Shown here one piece after another: positions 6,140 through 11,847 of a DNA stretch of 64,000 bases. Made by a program: the position numbers and the translations under genes. Below the pieces are notes generated by a model. That model saw nothing but the letters and a program-made list of their open reading frames with translations. It was not told the DNA's origin and searched no databases. Numbering within the stretch: the first letter of the stretch is position 1; each line of letters begins with the position of its first letter. This DNA comes from Streptomyces sp. NBC_01460 (GTDB lineage Bacteria > Actinomycetota > Actinomycetes > Streptomycetales > Streptomycetaceae): the NCBI RefSeq assembly GCF_036227405.1, contig NZ_CP109473.1, forward strand, positions 6,634,001 to 6,698,000, in the 5' to 3' direction.

Positions 6140-7627
6140 ATGCAGCGTCCTCTTCAGCGCGACACCACACGTACGGGCCACGCCGTCGTCATCGGCGGTG
6201 GCATCGCCGGACTCGCCGCCGCCCGCCGGCTGCTGGACTCGGGCGTCCGGGTCACCGTCCTGGAGGCGACCGGGCGGCTCGGCGGGAAGCTGATGACCGG
6301 CGAGATCGCGGGCACCCAGGTCGACCTCGGCGCGGAGTCGATGCTCGCGCGACGGCCCGAAGCGGTCGAGCTGGCCACCGGGGCCGGGCTCGGCGGCCGG
6401 CTCCGGCCGCCGGCCACCGCCACCGCGTCGGTCTGGACGCGCGACGCCCTGCGTCCCATGCCCAAGGGCCATGTGATGGGCGTGCCCGGAGATCCGTCGG
6501 CGCTCAGCGGGCTCCTCTCGCCCGAGGGCCTGGCCAGGATCGCAGAGGAGCGCGACCTCACCCCGACCGCCGTCGGCGACGACGTCGCGGTCGGCTCGTA
6601 CGTCGCGGACCGGCTCGGCCGCGAGGTCGTCGACCGGCTCGTGGAGCCGCTGCTCGGCGGGGTGTACGCGGGCGACGCCTACCGGATCTCGATGCGTGCG
6701 GCCGTGCCCCAGCTCTTCGAAGCGGTGAAGGAGGGCGGGCCCCTCCTCGACGGGGTGCTCCGGATCCAGGAGAGGGCCGCAGCCCGGCAGCAGAGCGGGC
6801 CGGTCTTCCAGGGCATCGAGGGCGGGATCGGCACCCTGCCGGGCGCCGTCGCCGACGCCGTGCGGGAGGAGGGCGGCGAGATCCTCCTGGAGACGCCGGT
6901 GCTCGGCCTGACCCGGACCACGGACGGCTGGGACGTGCGCACCGACAGCCGGGTGATCGCCGCCGAGGCCGTCGTCCTGGCCACCCCCGCCTGGTCGGCG
7001 TCCACCCTGCTCGCCGCCGAGTGCCCGGCCGCGTCGGTCGAGCTCGCCGCCGTCGAGTACGCCTCGATGGCCCTGGTCACCATGGCCTTCCGGCGCTCCG
7101 ACACCGAGGGGACCGAGGCGCTCCGGGGGCGGTCCGGATTCCTCGTGCCGCCCGTCGACGGGCGCACGATCAAGGCCGCCACCTTCTCCAGCAACAAGTG
7201 GCAGTGGGTCGCCGACGCCGCCCCCGACCTCTTCGTGCTGCGCACCTCCGTCGGCCGCTACGGCGAGGAGGAGCACCTGCACCGTGAGGACTCCGAGCTG
7301 GTCGCCGCCTCCCTGGCGGACCTCGCGTCCGCGACCGGGCTGGCGGCCAGGCCCGTGGACACCGAGGTCACCCGTTGGATCGGCGGACTGCCCCAGTACC
7401 CGGTGGGCCACCTCACCCGGGTCGCCCGGATCCGCGACGAGGTCGCCAAGCTGCCCGGGCTGCGGGTGTGCGGAGCGGTGTACGACGGGGTCGGGATCCC
7501 CGCCTGCGTGGCGAGCGCGCACCGGGCCGCGGACGAGATCGTCCGCGACCTCACGGCCGCGGGCACGGGGGAGATCGACAACACGCCGACCCGGGTTCGG
7601 GGCACCGGGAGCGAGGCGGGACAATAG
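6140..7627 (+). CDS. hemG: Coproporphyrinogen III oxidase (protoporphyrinogen oxidase family)
   Basis: A 495-residue FAD enzyme of the HemY/CgoX family. In actinobacteria this oxidises coproporphyrinogen III to coproporphyrin III. The N-terminal dinucleotide motif [16 protein letters not shown] (about 16-31) and the following [10 protein letters not shown] are typical. The central region includes [21 protein letters not shown], and the C-terminus has [18 protein letters not shown], where the FAD pyrophosphate is bound. It is also named hemY or cgoX. It ends 4 nt before hemQ, so the two are an operon. The ATG at 6140 is reasonable, but there is only a weak GAGAG upstream. Confidence 0.92.
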
Positions 7628-7631
7628 CCGT

Positions 7632-8345
7632 ATGAGTGCGCCAGAAAAGCTTCCGAACGCAGGCAAGAAGGCCAAGGACCTCAACGAGGTCATCCGCTAC
7701 ACCCTGTGGTCCGTCTTCAGGCTGAAGGACGTCCTGCCCGTCGACCGCGCCGGTTACGCCGACGAGGTCCAGGAGCTGTTCGACCAGCTCGCGGCGAAGG
7801 ACATCACGGTCCGCGGCACCTACGACGTGTCCGGTCTGCGGGCCGACGCCGATCTGATGATCTGGTGGCACGCGGAGACCTCCGACGAGCTCCAGGAGGC
7901 GTACAACCTCTTCCGGCGCACGAAGCTGGGCCGCGCACTCGAGCCGGTCTGGTCGAACATGGCGCTGCACCGCCCGGCCGAGTTCAACAAGTCGCACGTG
8001 CCGGCCTTCCTGGCCGACGAGACGCCGCGCGACTACATCAGCGTGTACCCCTTCGTGCGCAGCTACGACTGGTACCTGCTGCCCGACGAGGACCGCCGCC
8101 GCATGCTCGCGGACCACGGCAAGATGGCCCGTGGCTACCCGGACGTGCGCGCCAACACGGTCGCCTCCTTCTCGCTGGGCGACTACGAGTGGCTCCTCGC
8201 CTTCGAGGCCGACGAGCTCTACCGCATCGTCGACCTCATGCGTCACCTGCGGGCGTCCGAGGCGCGGCTGCACGTGCGGGAAGAGGTCCCGTTCTACACG
8301 GGGCGCAGGAAGGCTGTCGCAGACTTGGTGGCCGGACTCGCATAG
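7632..8345 (+). CDS. hemQ: Coproheme decarboxylase (HemQ/ChdC)
   Basis: A 237-residue chlorite-dismutase-fold protein that performs the last step of the coproporphyrin-dependent haem pathway: peroxide-driven decarboxylation of coprohaem III to haem b. The family blocks [29 protein letters not shown] (containing the conserved Tyr), [17 protein letters not shown] and [19 protein letters not shown] are all present, in the usual order and length for actinobacterial ChdC. It is co-transcribed with hemG (4-nt gap), which supports the coproporphyrin route rather than the classical protoporphyrin route in this organism. Confidence 0.94.
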
Positions 8346-8660: not shown

Positions 8661-9437
8661 TCAGACCCCGGTCCGGGCCCGGATCGGCAGGGCCGCTCTC
8701 AGGTCCGGGTCCTCCAGGGCTCCCACGCCCCGTACCGCCACCGCCGCCAGGAGATCGCGGTCCGCGCCGCGCACCGGGGCCGGCAGCGAGTCCAGCCAGT
8801 GCTGCCCGCTCGGCGAGGCCCACGGGCTGTACGGGTGGTTCTCCACCCGCGCGATGGCCAGGCAGCCCAGCGTCAGTACGAGCGGCAGACCGAACCAGGC
8901 GGCCACCGGGCCCGCGTAGCCCATGTCCTGACCGGGGACCAGCATCGCGGTGGCCGCCAGGGCCACCACCAGCACCGCCGCGCCCCGGACGCCGCGCACC
9001 GCCGACTCCAGACCCGTCCGGGTCCCGTGCGGCACGGCCAGCCCCGCCGCGACCAGGCGGTCGGCGAGGGAGCGTACGGTGTCGGCCGTCGCCGCGGCGG
9101 CCCGTATCGGTGCTATCCGGGACTGGCCCGCCGGGCCGATCACGCGGATCACGGTGCGCTCGACCTCGTCCCGCCCCTCAGGATCGACGACCGTCGCCCA
9201 GCCCGTGTGGGCGAGCAGCAGCCGACGCCGCAGGTGCATGGAGACCAGCGCGAGATCGGCGACGCGCTGTGGTCCGCCGGCCAGGAACGCCGTCTCGTAC
9301 AGGTTGAGTTCGGGGGAGACGGCCGGCCGGGCGGCGGCGGGCGGCCGCTGTGCCGCACCCGCGGTGACGAGGCACAGCCGGATGCAGGAGACGGCGGCCG
9401 CGCACCACGCGACCAGAAGAAGCAGGACCCAGAGCAT
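8661..9437 (-). CDS. TIGR04222 domain membrane protein without Cys tail
   Basis: A 258-residue integral membrane protein. It has an N-terminal transmembrane helix (about 2-24), then a cytosolic TIGR04222-type domain beginning at NLYETAFLAGGPQRVADLAL (about 45-64), and one or two further helices around 150-200. It shares the (Y/L)xxxFLxGGPxRVxDxAL pattern with the upstream gene, so the two are paralogous. It ends in a plain helical segment (DLLAAVAVRGVGALEDPDLRAALPI) rather than a Gly/Ser/Cys tail. It is the third gene of the leftward MNIO operon, 117 bp after its neighbour. The ATG at 9437 lacks a strong ribosome site, so it may depend on read-through translation or a later start. Confidence 0.75.
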   Translation of the reverse strand: MLWVLLLLVAWCAAAVSCIRLCLVTAGAAQRPPAAARPAVSPELNLYETAFLAGGPQRVADLALVSMHLRRRLLLAHTGWATVVDPEGRDEVERTVIRVIGPAGQSRIAPIRAAAATADTVRSLADRLVAAGLAVPHGTRTGLESAVRGVRGAAVLVVALAATAMLVPGQDMGYAGPVAAWFGLPLVLTLGCLAIARVENHPYSPWASPSGQHWLDSLPAPVRGADRDLLAAVAVRGVGALEDPDLRAALPIRARTGV

Positions 9438-9554: not shown

Positions 9555-9707
9555 TCACGAACTGCTGCCGCAGCTCGACCCGCTGCTGCAACTGGAGCCG
9601 CTGCTGCTGCAGCTGGATCCGCTGCTGCAGCTCGACCCCGAACTGCAGGTGGAGCCCGGTCCGGAGTCGCCGCCCCCGCCGGTGGAACCCCCGCAGCCGC
9701 CACCGCC
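9555..9707 (-). repeat. Tandem repeats encoding the Ser/Gly/Cys tail
   Basis: On the plus strand this reads as repeated variants of ctgctgcagct(g/c)ga(t/c)cc with an 18-21 bp period, preceded by Gly-coding runs. On the coding strand it gives the C-SSGSS ladder. Such repeats can expand or contract, so the Cys number probably varies between strains. Confidence 0.6.
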
Positions 9708-10550
9708 GGGACTCGTCCCCGCGCACCACAGCACCGGGATGAAGGCGTTCGCCGTGACCGGCGAGGTCGTCGAGCCCGACGAGGGGCGCAGGAAGGGCTG
9801 GTGCCGGGCGGCATCCGCCAACTGCCCCTGGAGCACGGGATCGGGGAGTGCGCGCAGACCGTGGGCTGCCACCAGATGGGCCGGATCGGCCACATGGGCG
9901 TTGGCCGTCCGGTAGTTGGCGGCGACCTGCCGTCCCGCCCGGGTGATCCGGGACCTGGCGGCCGCCGCTGTGCTGAACCCGACCACGGCCCCGGTGAGGA
10001 TCGCGGGCAGCATCTTCACCACGAAGGGCACCGGGAGGTCCGCGAAGGCGTCGAGCAGGGCGTACTGGACGACGGTCAGGGCGATGCTCACCGGCAGGCC
10101 GATGAGGGACCCGATCCCCAGGACGAGCCCCCACCGACGGCGCCCCCGGCTCTCGTCCGGGGCGATCAGCAGTCCCCGGGAGGCCAGCCCGTCGCCGATC
10201 TCCTGCACCGCGGGATGCCGCATCACCGCAGCCCGCAGGGTGCTCAGGGCCCCGCTGGGGGCCGCGGCCATCTCCTGGAGTACGGCACGCTCCACCGCGT
10301 CATGGGCCTCGGCCCGCTGGAGTGCGACGATGCCGGGTCCGCCGATGGTCAGCCGCCCGTCCGTGTGCATGCGGGTGAGCGCGGTGTCCACGACCCTGGC
10401 CGGACCGCCGCTGAGGAATGCCACTTCGGAGAGGTCGAGCAGGTAGCCGCCGGACCCGCCGCCCTGCCGGCCGGCGTGACGCGTCGCGACGATCAGGAGG
10501 GTGGAGGAGACGGCCACGGCAAGGGTCAGCAGAAGAGCGAGGAGGTTCAT
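9555..10550 (-). CDS. TIGR04222 membrane protein with Cys-repeat tail (putative MNIO substrate)
   Basis: A 331-residue membrane protein. It has an N-terminal transmembrane helix (about 3-22), the TIGR04222 domain from DLSEVAFLSGGPARVVDTAL (about 39-58), and a hydrophobic pair at about 140-200. The tail from about residue 276 is extreme: Gly-rich, then five cysteines at 302, 308, 314, 321 and 327 spaced by SSGSS or SSSGSS, plus earlier Cys at 276 and 286. The ATG at 10550 starts 7 bp after the stop of the MNIO gene, so the two are translationally coupled; the larger frame to 10832 is an antisense artefact. A cysteine ladder beside a DUF692 enzyme resembles the arrangement of MNIO-modified peptides. 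Membrane anchoring would make this an unusual protein-sized substrate. The modification is inferred. Confidence 0.8.
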   Translation of the reverse strand: MNLLALLLTLAVAVSSTLLIVATRHAGRQGGGSGGYLLDLSEVAFLSGGPARVVDTALTRMHTDGRLTIGGPGIVALQRAEAHDAVERAVLQEMAAAPSGALSTLRAAVMRHPAVQEIGDGLASRGLLIAPDESRGRRRWGLVLGIGSLIGLPVSIALTVVQYALLDAFADLPVPFVVKMLPAILTGAVVGFSTAAAARSRITRAGRQVAANYRTANAHVADPAHLVAAHGLRALPDPVLQGQLADAARHQPFLRPSSGSTTSPVTANAFIPVLWCAGTSPGGGGCGGSTGGGGDSGPGSTCSSGSSCSSGSSCSSSGSSCSSGSSCGSSS

Positions 10551-10557
10551 GGCGTGG

Positions 10558-11847
10558 TCACTTTCCGAGGAGGGCGGCACGGGCGGAGCGGACCAGACGG
10601 GTCGCGCGGCGCGGGGGACGGGGGCCGGCGCGGTCCTGCCACCAGAGGGTGAGCCGTCGCCGGGCCGCCTCGTCGTCGGGCCGGCCCTCGACGAGCAGCA
10701 GCTCGGCGAAGGCCAGGGCGTCGCGGCGGTAACCGCCGGACATCGGCCGGTTCCTGGCGTACGCGAGGAACGCCTTCCGGTAGCCGTCGCCGAGGATCTC
10801 GGGCAGCTCCGGTGCGACCTTGGCGACGACATCGGCCCGCTTCGCGGCCAGGGCGCGGCTCTGCACCCCGAGGCGCCGGTGGTCGAAGCCGTCCGGCACC
10901 GGTGTTCCGGCCACCAGCGAGGAGAGCAGGGCGGTCTGCGCCACGGCGGTCCGGTCGCGGGCTCCGGCCGCGGGGGCCGGCTCCGGTCGCCGGACGGTCC
11001 TTCCGCAGGCGGCTCCCCGGGCGGTGGACGCCTCGGCCGGCGTGGAGCGGATCGCGGCCAGTTCGCCGGCCAGCTCCTCGGCCGACGGGAAGTCGTCGTC
11101 GCGCTCCAGCAGCACCCCCGGCGGGTCGACGCGCGAGCGGAGCTCGGCCAGCACGTCCAGGACGGGCTGCGTCACGGGATGCGCGTGCGTGTCGTGCCAG
11201 ACGCCGTCCTTCTCGACGCCGCCCGCCACATGCACGTACGCGATGGCCTCGACCGGCAGTTCGTCGAGCGCGGTCACGGGGTCCTCGCCGCGGTTGACGT
11301 GGTTGGTGTGCAGGTTCGCGACGTCGATCAGCAGCCGCACACCGGTGCGTTCGACCAGCTCCGCGAGGAACTGCCCCTCGGTCAGCTCCTCGCCGGGCCA
11401 GGAGACCAGCGCGGCGATGTTCTCCAGGGCCAGCGGGACGGGCAGCGAGTCCTGCGCGATCCGCACGTTCTCGCACAGGACGCCCAGCGCGTCCCAGGTC
11501 CGGGGCACCGGAAGCAGATGGCCCGCCTCCAGCACCGGGGAGGCGGTGAGCGGCCCCCCGGCGCGTACGAACGCGATGTGCTCCGTCACCAGCGGGGTGC
11601 CCAGGAGTTCGGCCCGCGCCGCCAGCCCGGCGAGGCGGCCGGGATCCGGGCGGTCGGCGCCGCCCAGGCCCAGCGAGACCCCGTGCGGGACGACCGTGAC
11701 CCCGCGCTCCCGGAGCCGTACCAGTGAGTCCGGGAGATGGTCCGTGCAGAGGTTCTCCGCGACCGCCTCGACCCAGTCGACGCCCGGCAGGGCCTCGACG
11801 GCGTCCGCGATCTCCGGCCGCCAGCCGATGCCGATTCCCAGCTTCAT
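10558..11847 (-). CDS. DUF692/MNIO-family iron enzyme with C-terminal partner-like domain
   Basis: A 429-residue cytosolic protein. Residues 1-270 form a DUF692 TIM barrel, the multinuclear non-haem iron oxidase family (MbnB, TglH, bufferin enzymes) that modifies cysteines in ribosomal peptides. Likely metal ligands are all visible: H55 (VPHGVS), H90 (TEH), E142 (LEN), D175, N178 and H180-H183 ([10 protein letters not shown]), H206 (YVHVAGG), D219-H221-H223 (HDTHAH) and E248 (LLERDDD). After a linker, residues about 300-405 ([36 protein letters not shown]) recall the DUF2063-type partner proteins that are usually separate genes. The ATG at 11847 follows GGAGGGGAC. It is the first gene of the operon with the Cys-tail protein. 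Family call secure; chemistry and partner identity inferred. Confidence 0.85.

Follow-up and report, generated by a model that had tools for sequence, protein, structure and literature searches.

We propose that a locus of Streptomyces sp. NBC_01460 encodes an MNIO enzyme with a fused partner-like domain, and that this enzyme modifies the cysteine ladder of a neighbouring TIGR04222 membrane protein, here called TigA, into a membrane-tethered, cytoplasm-facing, metal-binding tail. The locus lies in a 64,000-nucleotide stretch of contig NZ_CP109473.1 (positions 6,634,001 to 6,698,000), which we refer to as the window and in which all feature coordinates are given. Taken as a whole, the proposal seems to us evenly poised between being right and being wrong. 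The association of the MNIO with TigA is real, conserved and for the most part already described, and the mechanism is plausible; the computed support covers the pairing and coupling of the two genes, the iron ligands, the partner-like domain, the retention of the tail cysteines and a charge bias indicating the cytoplasm. The MNIO (DUF692/PF05114) gene, at 10558..11847 on the minus strand, encodes a protein of 429 amino acids, and is followed on the same strand by the gene for TigA (331 amino acids; 9555..10550).

The MNIO was identified by its profile match and its conserved iron ligands. PF05114 scored the protein at E 4.4e-76, the 256.1 bits passing the family cut-off of 25, and the catalytic TIM-barrel domain (PF05114) occupies 11044..11838 on the minus strand (genome coordinates 6645044-6645838 minus 6634000). 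The iron ligands of TglH, as given in the available part of the source, are His71, His107, Glu151, Asp184, Asn187, His216, Asp229, His231, and Glu258 (PMC10880893). Residues E142, D175, N178, H206, D219, H221, and E248 of the MNIO align well with the TglH ligands from Glu151 onward; H55 and H90 are matched to the TglH histidines in a very weak segment (1.5 bits), and the same histidines align in 3bww. All nine counterparts are invariant in 13 aligned sequences, and the statement of the first-pass annotation, a model's reading of the bare sequence, that this is a DUF692 protein with intact metal ligands was borne out, with two of the histidines weakly aligned. Judged by its sequence, the MNIO is an iron enzyme of the MbnB/TglH/ChrH family, with peptide oxidation as its putative activity. 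It did not reach the cut-off of the BufB equivalog NF050167 (172.5 bits vs 310), and the MbnB model matched it at E 2.5e-9, i.e., as a distant relative in sequence. The source genome (8.8 Mb) has one MNIO gene and two TIGR04222 genes over the cut-off, all within this locus (in the family searches, at most 13 or at most 25 candidates were scored per genome, depending on the search). A second, clearly different MNIO type (>357 bits) occurs in 3 of 101 Streptomyces genomes (G226, G280, and G288).

The C-terminal extension of the MNIO, which had not been noticed in the earlier reading, corresponds to an all-helical, DUF2063/MbnC-like domain resembling the partner proteins of other MNIOs (10627..10962, minus strand; PF26136 in the precomputed Pfam assignment), the limits of which were taken from helices 7-118 of a slice starting at residue 290. 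Compared with the DUF2063 profile, the domain scored 33, whereas shuffled sequences scored 19 or less, and the HHalign probability was only 34-53%; there is moderate support, at the sequence level, for its alignment with DUF2063 partners. A likeness of its predicted fold to MbnC is weakly suggested by Foldseek, where MbnC was its first VIA match among solved folds (one aligner only). As to the NGO1945/TglI fold, 3dee and the TglI chains were absent from the Foldseek list in which MbnC was present. The DUF2063 signature PF09836 is not among the Pfam families of the MNIO protein, a PF09836 search gave no match in G000 and exceeded the cut-off in 1 of 296 genomes of the phylum, a sequence search of solved structures with the partner domain returned no relative (one chance row, E 2.2), and a Pfam scan of three separate partner open reading frames (ORFs) found no family.

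The same partner-like domain recurs in the class. Among 43 MNIO loci it is fused in 21 and present as a separate frame in 16, unfused MNIOs having it encoded by an adjacent separate gene. All 21 class loci in which a ladder gene adjoins the MNIO have it, either fused or as a neighbouring frame (in one of these, L010, the match is weak and truncated), so that a one-enzyme test is possible. At a further locus (L058; G038:C1:5645744), the frame of a ladder-tailed TIGR04222 protein continues into a stretch resembling the partner domain, as if the locus were degraded; an MNIO with a partner is located elsewhere in that genome (L044). In an actinobacterial metagenome-assembled genome, a Cys-rich ORF (L250:28-552, plus strand) lies directly upstream of an MNIO and a DUF2063 gene and looks like a further candidate MNIO substrate.

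TigA matches NCBIfam TIGR04222 at E 1.8e-43 (148.8 bits vs a cut-off of 43), in agreement with the earlier description of a 331-residue membrane protein of this family with two extra cysteines near its tail. These are C276 and C286, which belong to a W275-C276 ... C286 motif upstream of the ladder (9693..9728, minus strand) that is conserved in relatives. The ladder itself (9570..9647, minus strand) comprises five cysteines in Ser/Gly, at positions 302, 308, 314, 321, and 327. The number had been read correctly; the uniform SSGSS spacing had not, as the third of the four spacers is SSSGSS and only the others are SSGSS. At an assumed Cys background of 0.8%, the binomial probability of seven or more cysteines in 56 residues is 3e-7. 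No Pfam family, including the bufferin domain DUF2282, was found at E 0.1 in TigA or in TigB, the second TIGR04222 protein of the locus. The Cys tail is kept in relatives, 112 distinct ladder proteins having a median of 8 cysteines (range 3-11). That range, together with variation in ladder length and the loss of the ladder from some relatives, is what might be expected if the ladder were functionless low-complexity drift, but in 117 proteins (5 duplicates) cysteine accounts for 11% of the final 60 residues and mostly has S or G next to it, and ladders are found together with MNIO; we regard drift as highly improbable. A shorter TIGR04222 subfamily with one tail Cys was seen at loci without MNIO (G073:C8, G101:C12:327663, G123:C27, and G133:C1:4159414).

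The MNIO and TigA genes had been described as translationally coupled and 7 bp apart. The gap is indeed 7 bp (bases 10551-10557), and coupling is supported by the named Streptomyces loci, where, of 49 loci with a placeable start, 34 show a 4-nt overlap between the ladder gene and the MNIO stop. The named loci come from Streptomyces throughout and were taken as the top 80 of 562 relatives; 67 were kept after omitting those with <5.5 kb past the MNIO, and 6 of the 80 MNIOs are identical to one in our other sets, so the samples overlap. A tail was counted as a ladder if three or more Cys fell within 40 residues of which at least 60% were G, S, or C. TIGR04222 exceeded the cut-off in 49 of 197 class genomes. 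A ladder was seen in 25 of these and not in the other 24; MNIO was present in 24 of the former and 10 of the latter. With Streptomyces set aside, the corresponding figures are 19/20 ladder genomes and 2/16 genomes with ladderless TIGR04222 only (Fisher 4e-7, uncorrected for relatedness). In the 17 linked loci outside Streptomyces the ladder gene comes before the MNIO, and in the 4 from Streptomyces it comes after; in some genomes (G100, G111) the two are unlinked.

Several observations within Streptomyces weigh against the tail of TigA being all that the MNIO acts upon. MNIO was found in 96 of 101 Streptomyces genomes. The genus sample was drawn from these as 60 of the listed MNIO matches in score order, omitting the four top-scoring ones (the other MNIO type), G039 (already included), and G253, and was reduced to 56 by dropping four short loci. 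It holds 37 loci with a ladder gene, 16 with only ladderless TIGR04222, and 3 with neither; the 67 named loci divide into 47, 16, and 4, respectively. An MNIO tree of 139 rows (134 distinct) requires 12 or more switches of ladder state and rejects a grouping of the ladderless loci in one clade. Streptomyces MNIO has thus been kept repeatedly without an adjoining ladder gene and, with about a third of the sampled loci ladderless, the ladder alone cannot account for the conservation of the enzyme in this genus. Among the ladderless or short Streptomyces loci listed, a search for another ladder-like ORF gave pattern matches in 4 of 31, none of them a Ser/Gly ladder. The co-occurrence that the first-pass annotation proposed to survey stands outside Streptomyces and is incomplete within the genus, where 19/56 and 20/67 loci lack an adjoining ladder. 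Its central idea, that the tail is the MNIO substrate, fits the genome-level linkage, the tight coupling, and the fused or adjacent partner-like domain, but not these ladderless loci.

The same loci lend weight to a somewhat unlikely alternative, in which the main target of the Streptomyces MNIO is TigB or some protein encoded elsewhere, and the ladder, although co-transcribed, stays unmodified, its thiols forming an array for metal or redox binding. TigB (258 amino acids without a Cys tail; 8661..9437, minus strand; TIGR04222 E 5.3e-46, 157.1 bits vs 43) is encoded after TigA, and had been overlooked in the earlier reading. It has a C18-x3-C22 motif at the end of its first transmembrane (TM) helix (9372..9386, minus strand), and, of 93 distinct no-tail TIGR04222 proteins, 78 have CxxxC among their first 45 residues, as against none of the 112 distinct ladder proteins. 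A no-tail TIGR04222 gene adjoins 44 of the 67 named MNIO genes, and TigB may share a pathway with the MNIO. On the other hand, ladder and MNIO go together outside Streptomyces, 19 of the 47 named ladder loci lack TigB, and its cysteines are in or at a membrane helix, unlike those of the peptides on which known MNIOs act.

In the TigA model, a helix at 2-28 is followed by a mixed domain (40-128), a helical hairpin (131-199), helices at 204-249, and then disorder. We mapped these segments on relatives and compared R+K per residue in distinct sequences. In all 109 ladder proteins compared (20/20 from outside Streptomyces and 89/89 from Streptomyces, 3 having been dropped), R+K density is higher in the stretches that follow TM1, precede TM2, and follow TM3 than in those that precede TM1 or link TM2 to TM3. 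Only 71 of 91 no-tail TIGR04222 proteins (2 dropped) show this pattern. No K or R precedes the N-terminal helix in TigA-like proteins. By the positive-inside rule, which assigns the cytoplasmic side from R/K density, the N-terminus of TigA is predicted to be outside, and the domain and tail inside; the topology of TigB is less sure. A cytoplasmic tail looks new and contradicts the published "periplasmic", both being predictions. Were the published topology correct, the tail could be modified in the cytoplasm and then be placed outside; TigA, anchored in the membrane, would in that case trap copper at the outer face in the manner of a bufferin. Bufferins are exported, in keeping with such a trap, which we nevertheless consider quite unlikely.

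The soluble part of TigA also aligned with GOLPH3/Vps74 in the fold comparison. A direct link between TIGR04222 and GPP34 (GOLPH3-like) is weak (HHalign P 0.014, probability 3%), and the fold match, which is tied with TolQ/ExbB, stays a lead. With DUF2207_C, HHalign gave P 5.7e-4 and a probability of 30%, and Pfam matched weakly (6 of 57 members, best E 0.05). The TIGR04222 hidden Markov model matches DUF2207 membrane proteins in the same places as DUF2207_C, which suggests, from sequence comparison, a relationship between these two families of membrane proteins. Overlapping matches of both models were seen in G020:C224 (E 1.9e-8), G027:C78, and G042:C188.

In the mechanism that we favour, the MNIO would bring its own peptide-binding partner domain, and the fused enzyme would oxidise the ladder cysteines in the cytoplasm during the synthesis of TigA from the coupled next gene. 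TigA would have three TM helices, with its N-terminus out and its C-terminus in, and the disordered Ser/Gly ladder, once modified, would remain anchored at the cytoplasmic side of the membrane as an array that binds metal. Heterocycles formed from Cys, as in bufferins and HvfA, would be the most likely product, and copper the most plausible metal, as suggested by analogy with the chemistry of relatives only. It is possible, and we advance it tentatively, that those MNIOs of actinomycetes that naturally contain their own partner domain modify a membrane protein rather than an exported peptide, and that the oxidised ladder never leaves the cytoplasmic face, serving as an intracellular tethered metallophore or redox sensor, which in Streptomyces would be encoded beside genes for the final steps of haem synthesis. 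Should the tail prove cytoplasmic, MNIO products would be at work within the cell while belonging to a full-size protein, and the place in which to seek their function would shift.

The first-pass annotation knew of no described system of this kind, and in this it was mistaken, since both the association and the hypothesis are in print (Antoine et al., 2025; PMC12452194, July 2025). In the accessible portions of that paper, TIGR04222 proteins make up 40% of >1,000 Cys proteins that lack signal peptides and are encoded before MNIO genes. They are mostly from Actinomycetota, as at our locus, have Ser/Gly-rich C-termini with Cys, and are predicted to be periplasmic; their Cys tails are proposed as putative MNIO substrates. 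A TIGR04222 gene follows the MNIO in >10% of cases, which is the gene order here. PME-type 2 partners are predicted in at least 10% of TIGR04222-MNIO clusters, many clusters seem partnerless, and whether and how TIGR04222 is modified is left open. Our locus differs in its fused or adjacent partner-like domain and in its cytoplasmic charge pattern; the accessible text contains no MNIO-partner fusion, and the built-in partner-like domain is apparently a new aspect. Among the papers listed in our literature searches, we saw none that tests TIGR04222 tails as MNIO substrates.

Other systems share parts of this arrangement. Bufferins and HvfABC/oxazolin combine an MNIO, a DUF2063-type partner, and a Cys-rich substrate in one operon, but their substrates have Sec signal peptides and are exported, their partner is a separate DUF2063-RRE protein, and their DUF2282 domain is absent from TigA and TigB; TIGR04222 proteins are listed among the precursors without a signal peptide in the part of PMC12452194 available. 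MbnABC (methanobactin) resembles our locus in pairing an MNIO with a helical partner, MbnC, but the partner is separate, the substrate is a small peptide, and the MNIO is distant in sequence. MovX, in the portion of its description available, has an extra C-terminal domain that may stand in for a partner, but that domain is described as winged helix/RRE and not as DUF2063-like helical.

The convergent neighbour of the pair, identified by locus comparison, is hemQ, of the chlorite-dismutase family (7632..8345, plus strand), and next to it lies a protoporphyrinogen/coproporphyrinogen oxidase-like gene (6140..7627, plus strand; PF01593), named hemY from its position before hemQ and the annotation of SCO6041. 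Within ~6 kb of the MNIO, hemQ was found in 65 and a hemY-like gene in 64 of the 67 named loci, hemQ being convergent; the operon may conceivably be linked to haem or iron supply. PF26136 is presumably named after SCO6045 and, from this naming and the gene order, we infer that SCO6045 is the orthologue of our MNIO. In Streptomyces coelicolor, SCO6041 is annotated as protoporphyrinogen oxidase and SCO6042 as chlorite dismutase, according to the accessible part of PMC5069765. According to PMC4991794, H2O2 raises SCO6045 3-fold in the wild type; the list of genes to which it belongs includes many for cysteine assimilation, and the induced genes on it are all deregulated in a hbpS-senS-senR mutant. 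A TAP-like hydrolase remnant downstream of TigB, suspected by eye, was not confirmed by tblastn of the window. In several Streptomyces loci (e.g., L014:4977-6545 and L017:6620-8266), a TAP-like alpha/beta hydrolase gene (PF08386) comes after the TIGR04222 genes, but none was found in the window; in one locus a DUF4142 gene lies upstream of the MNIO (L012:3452-4156).
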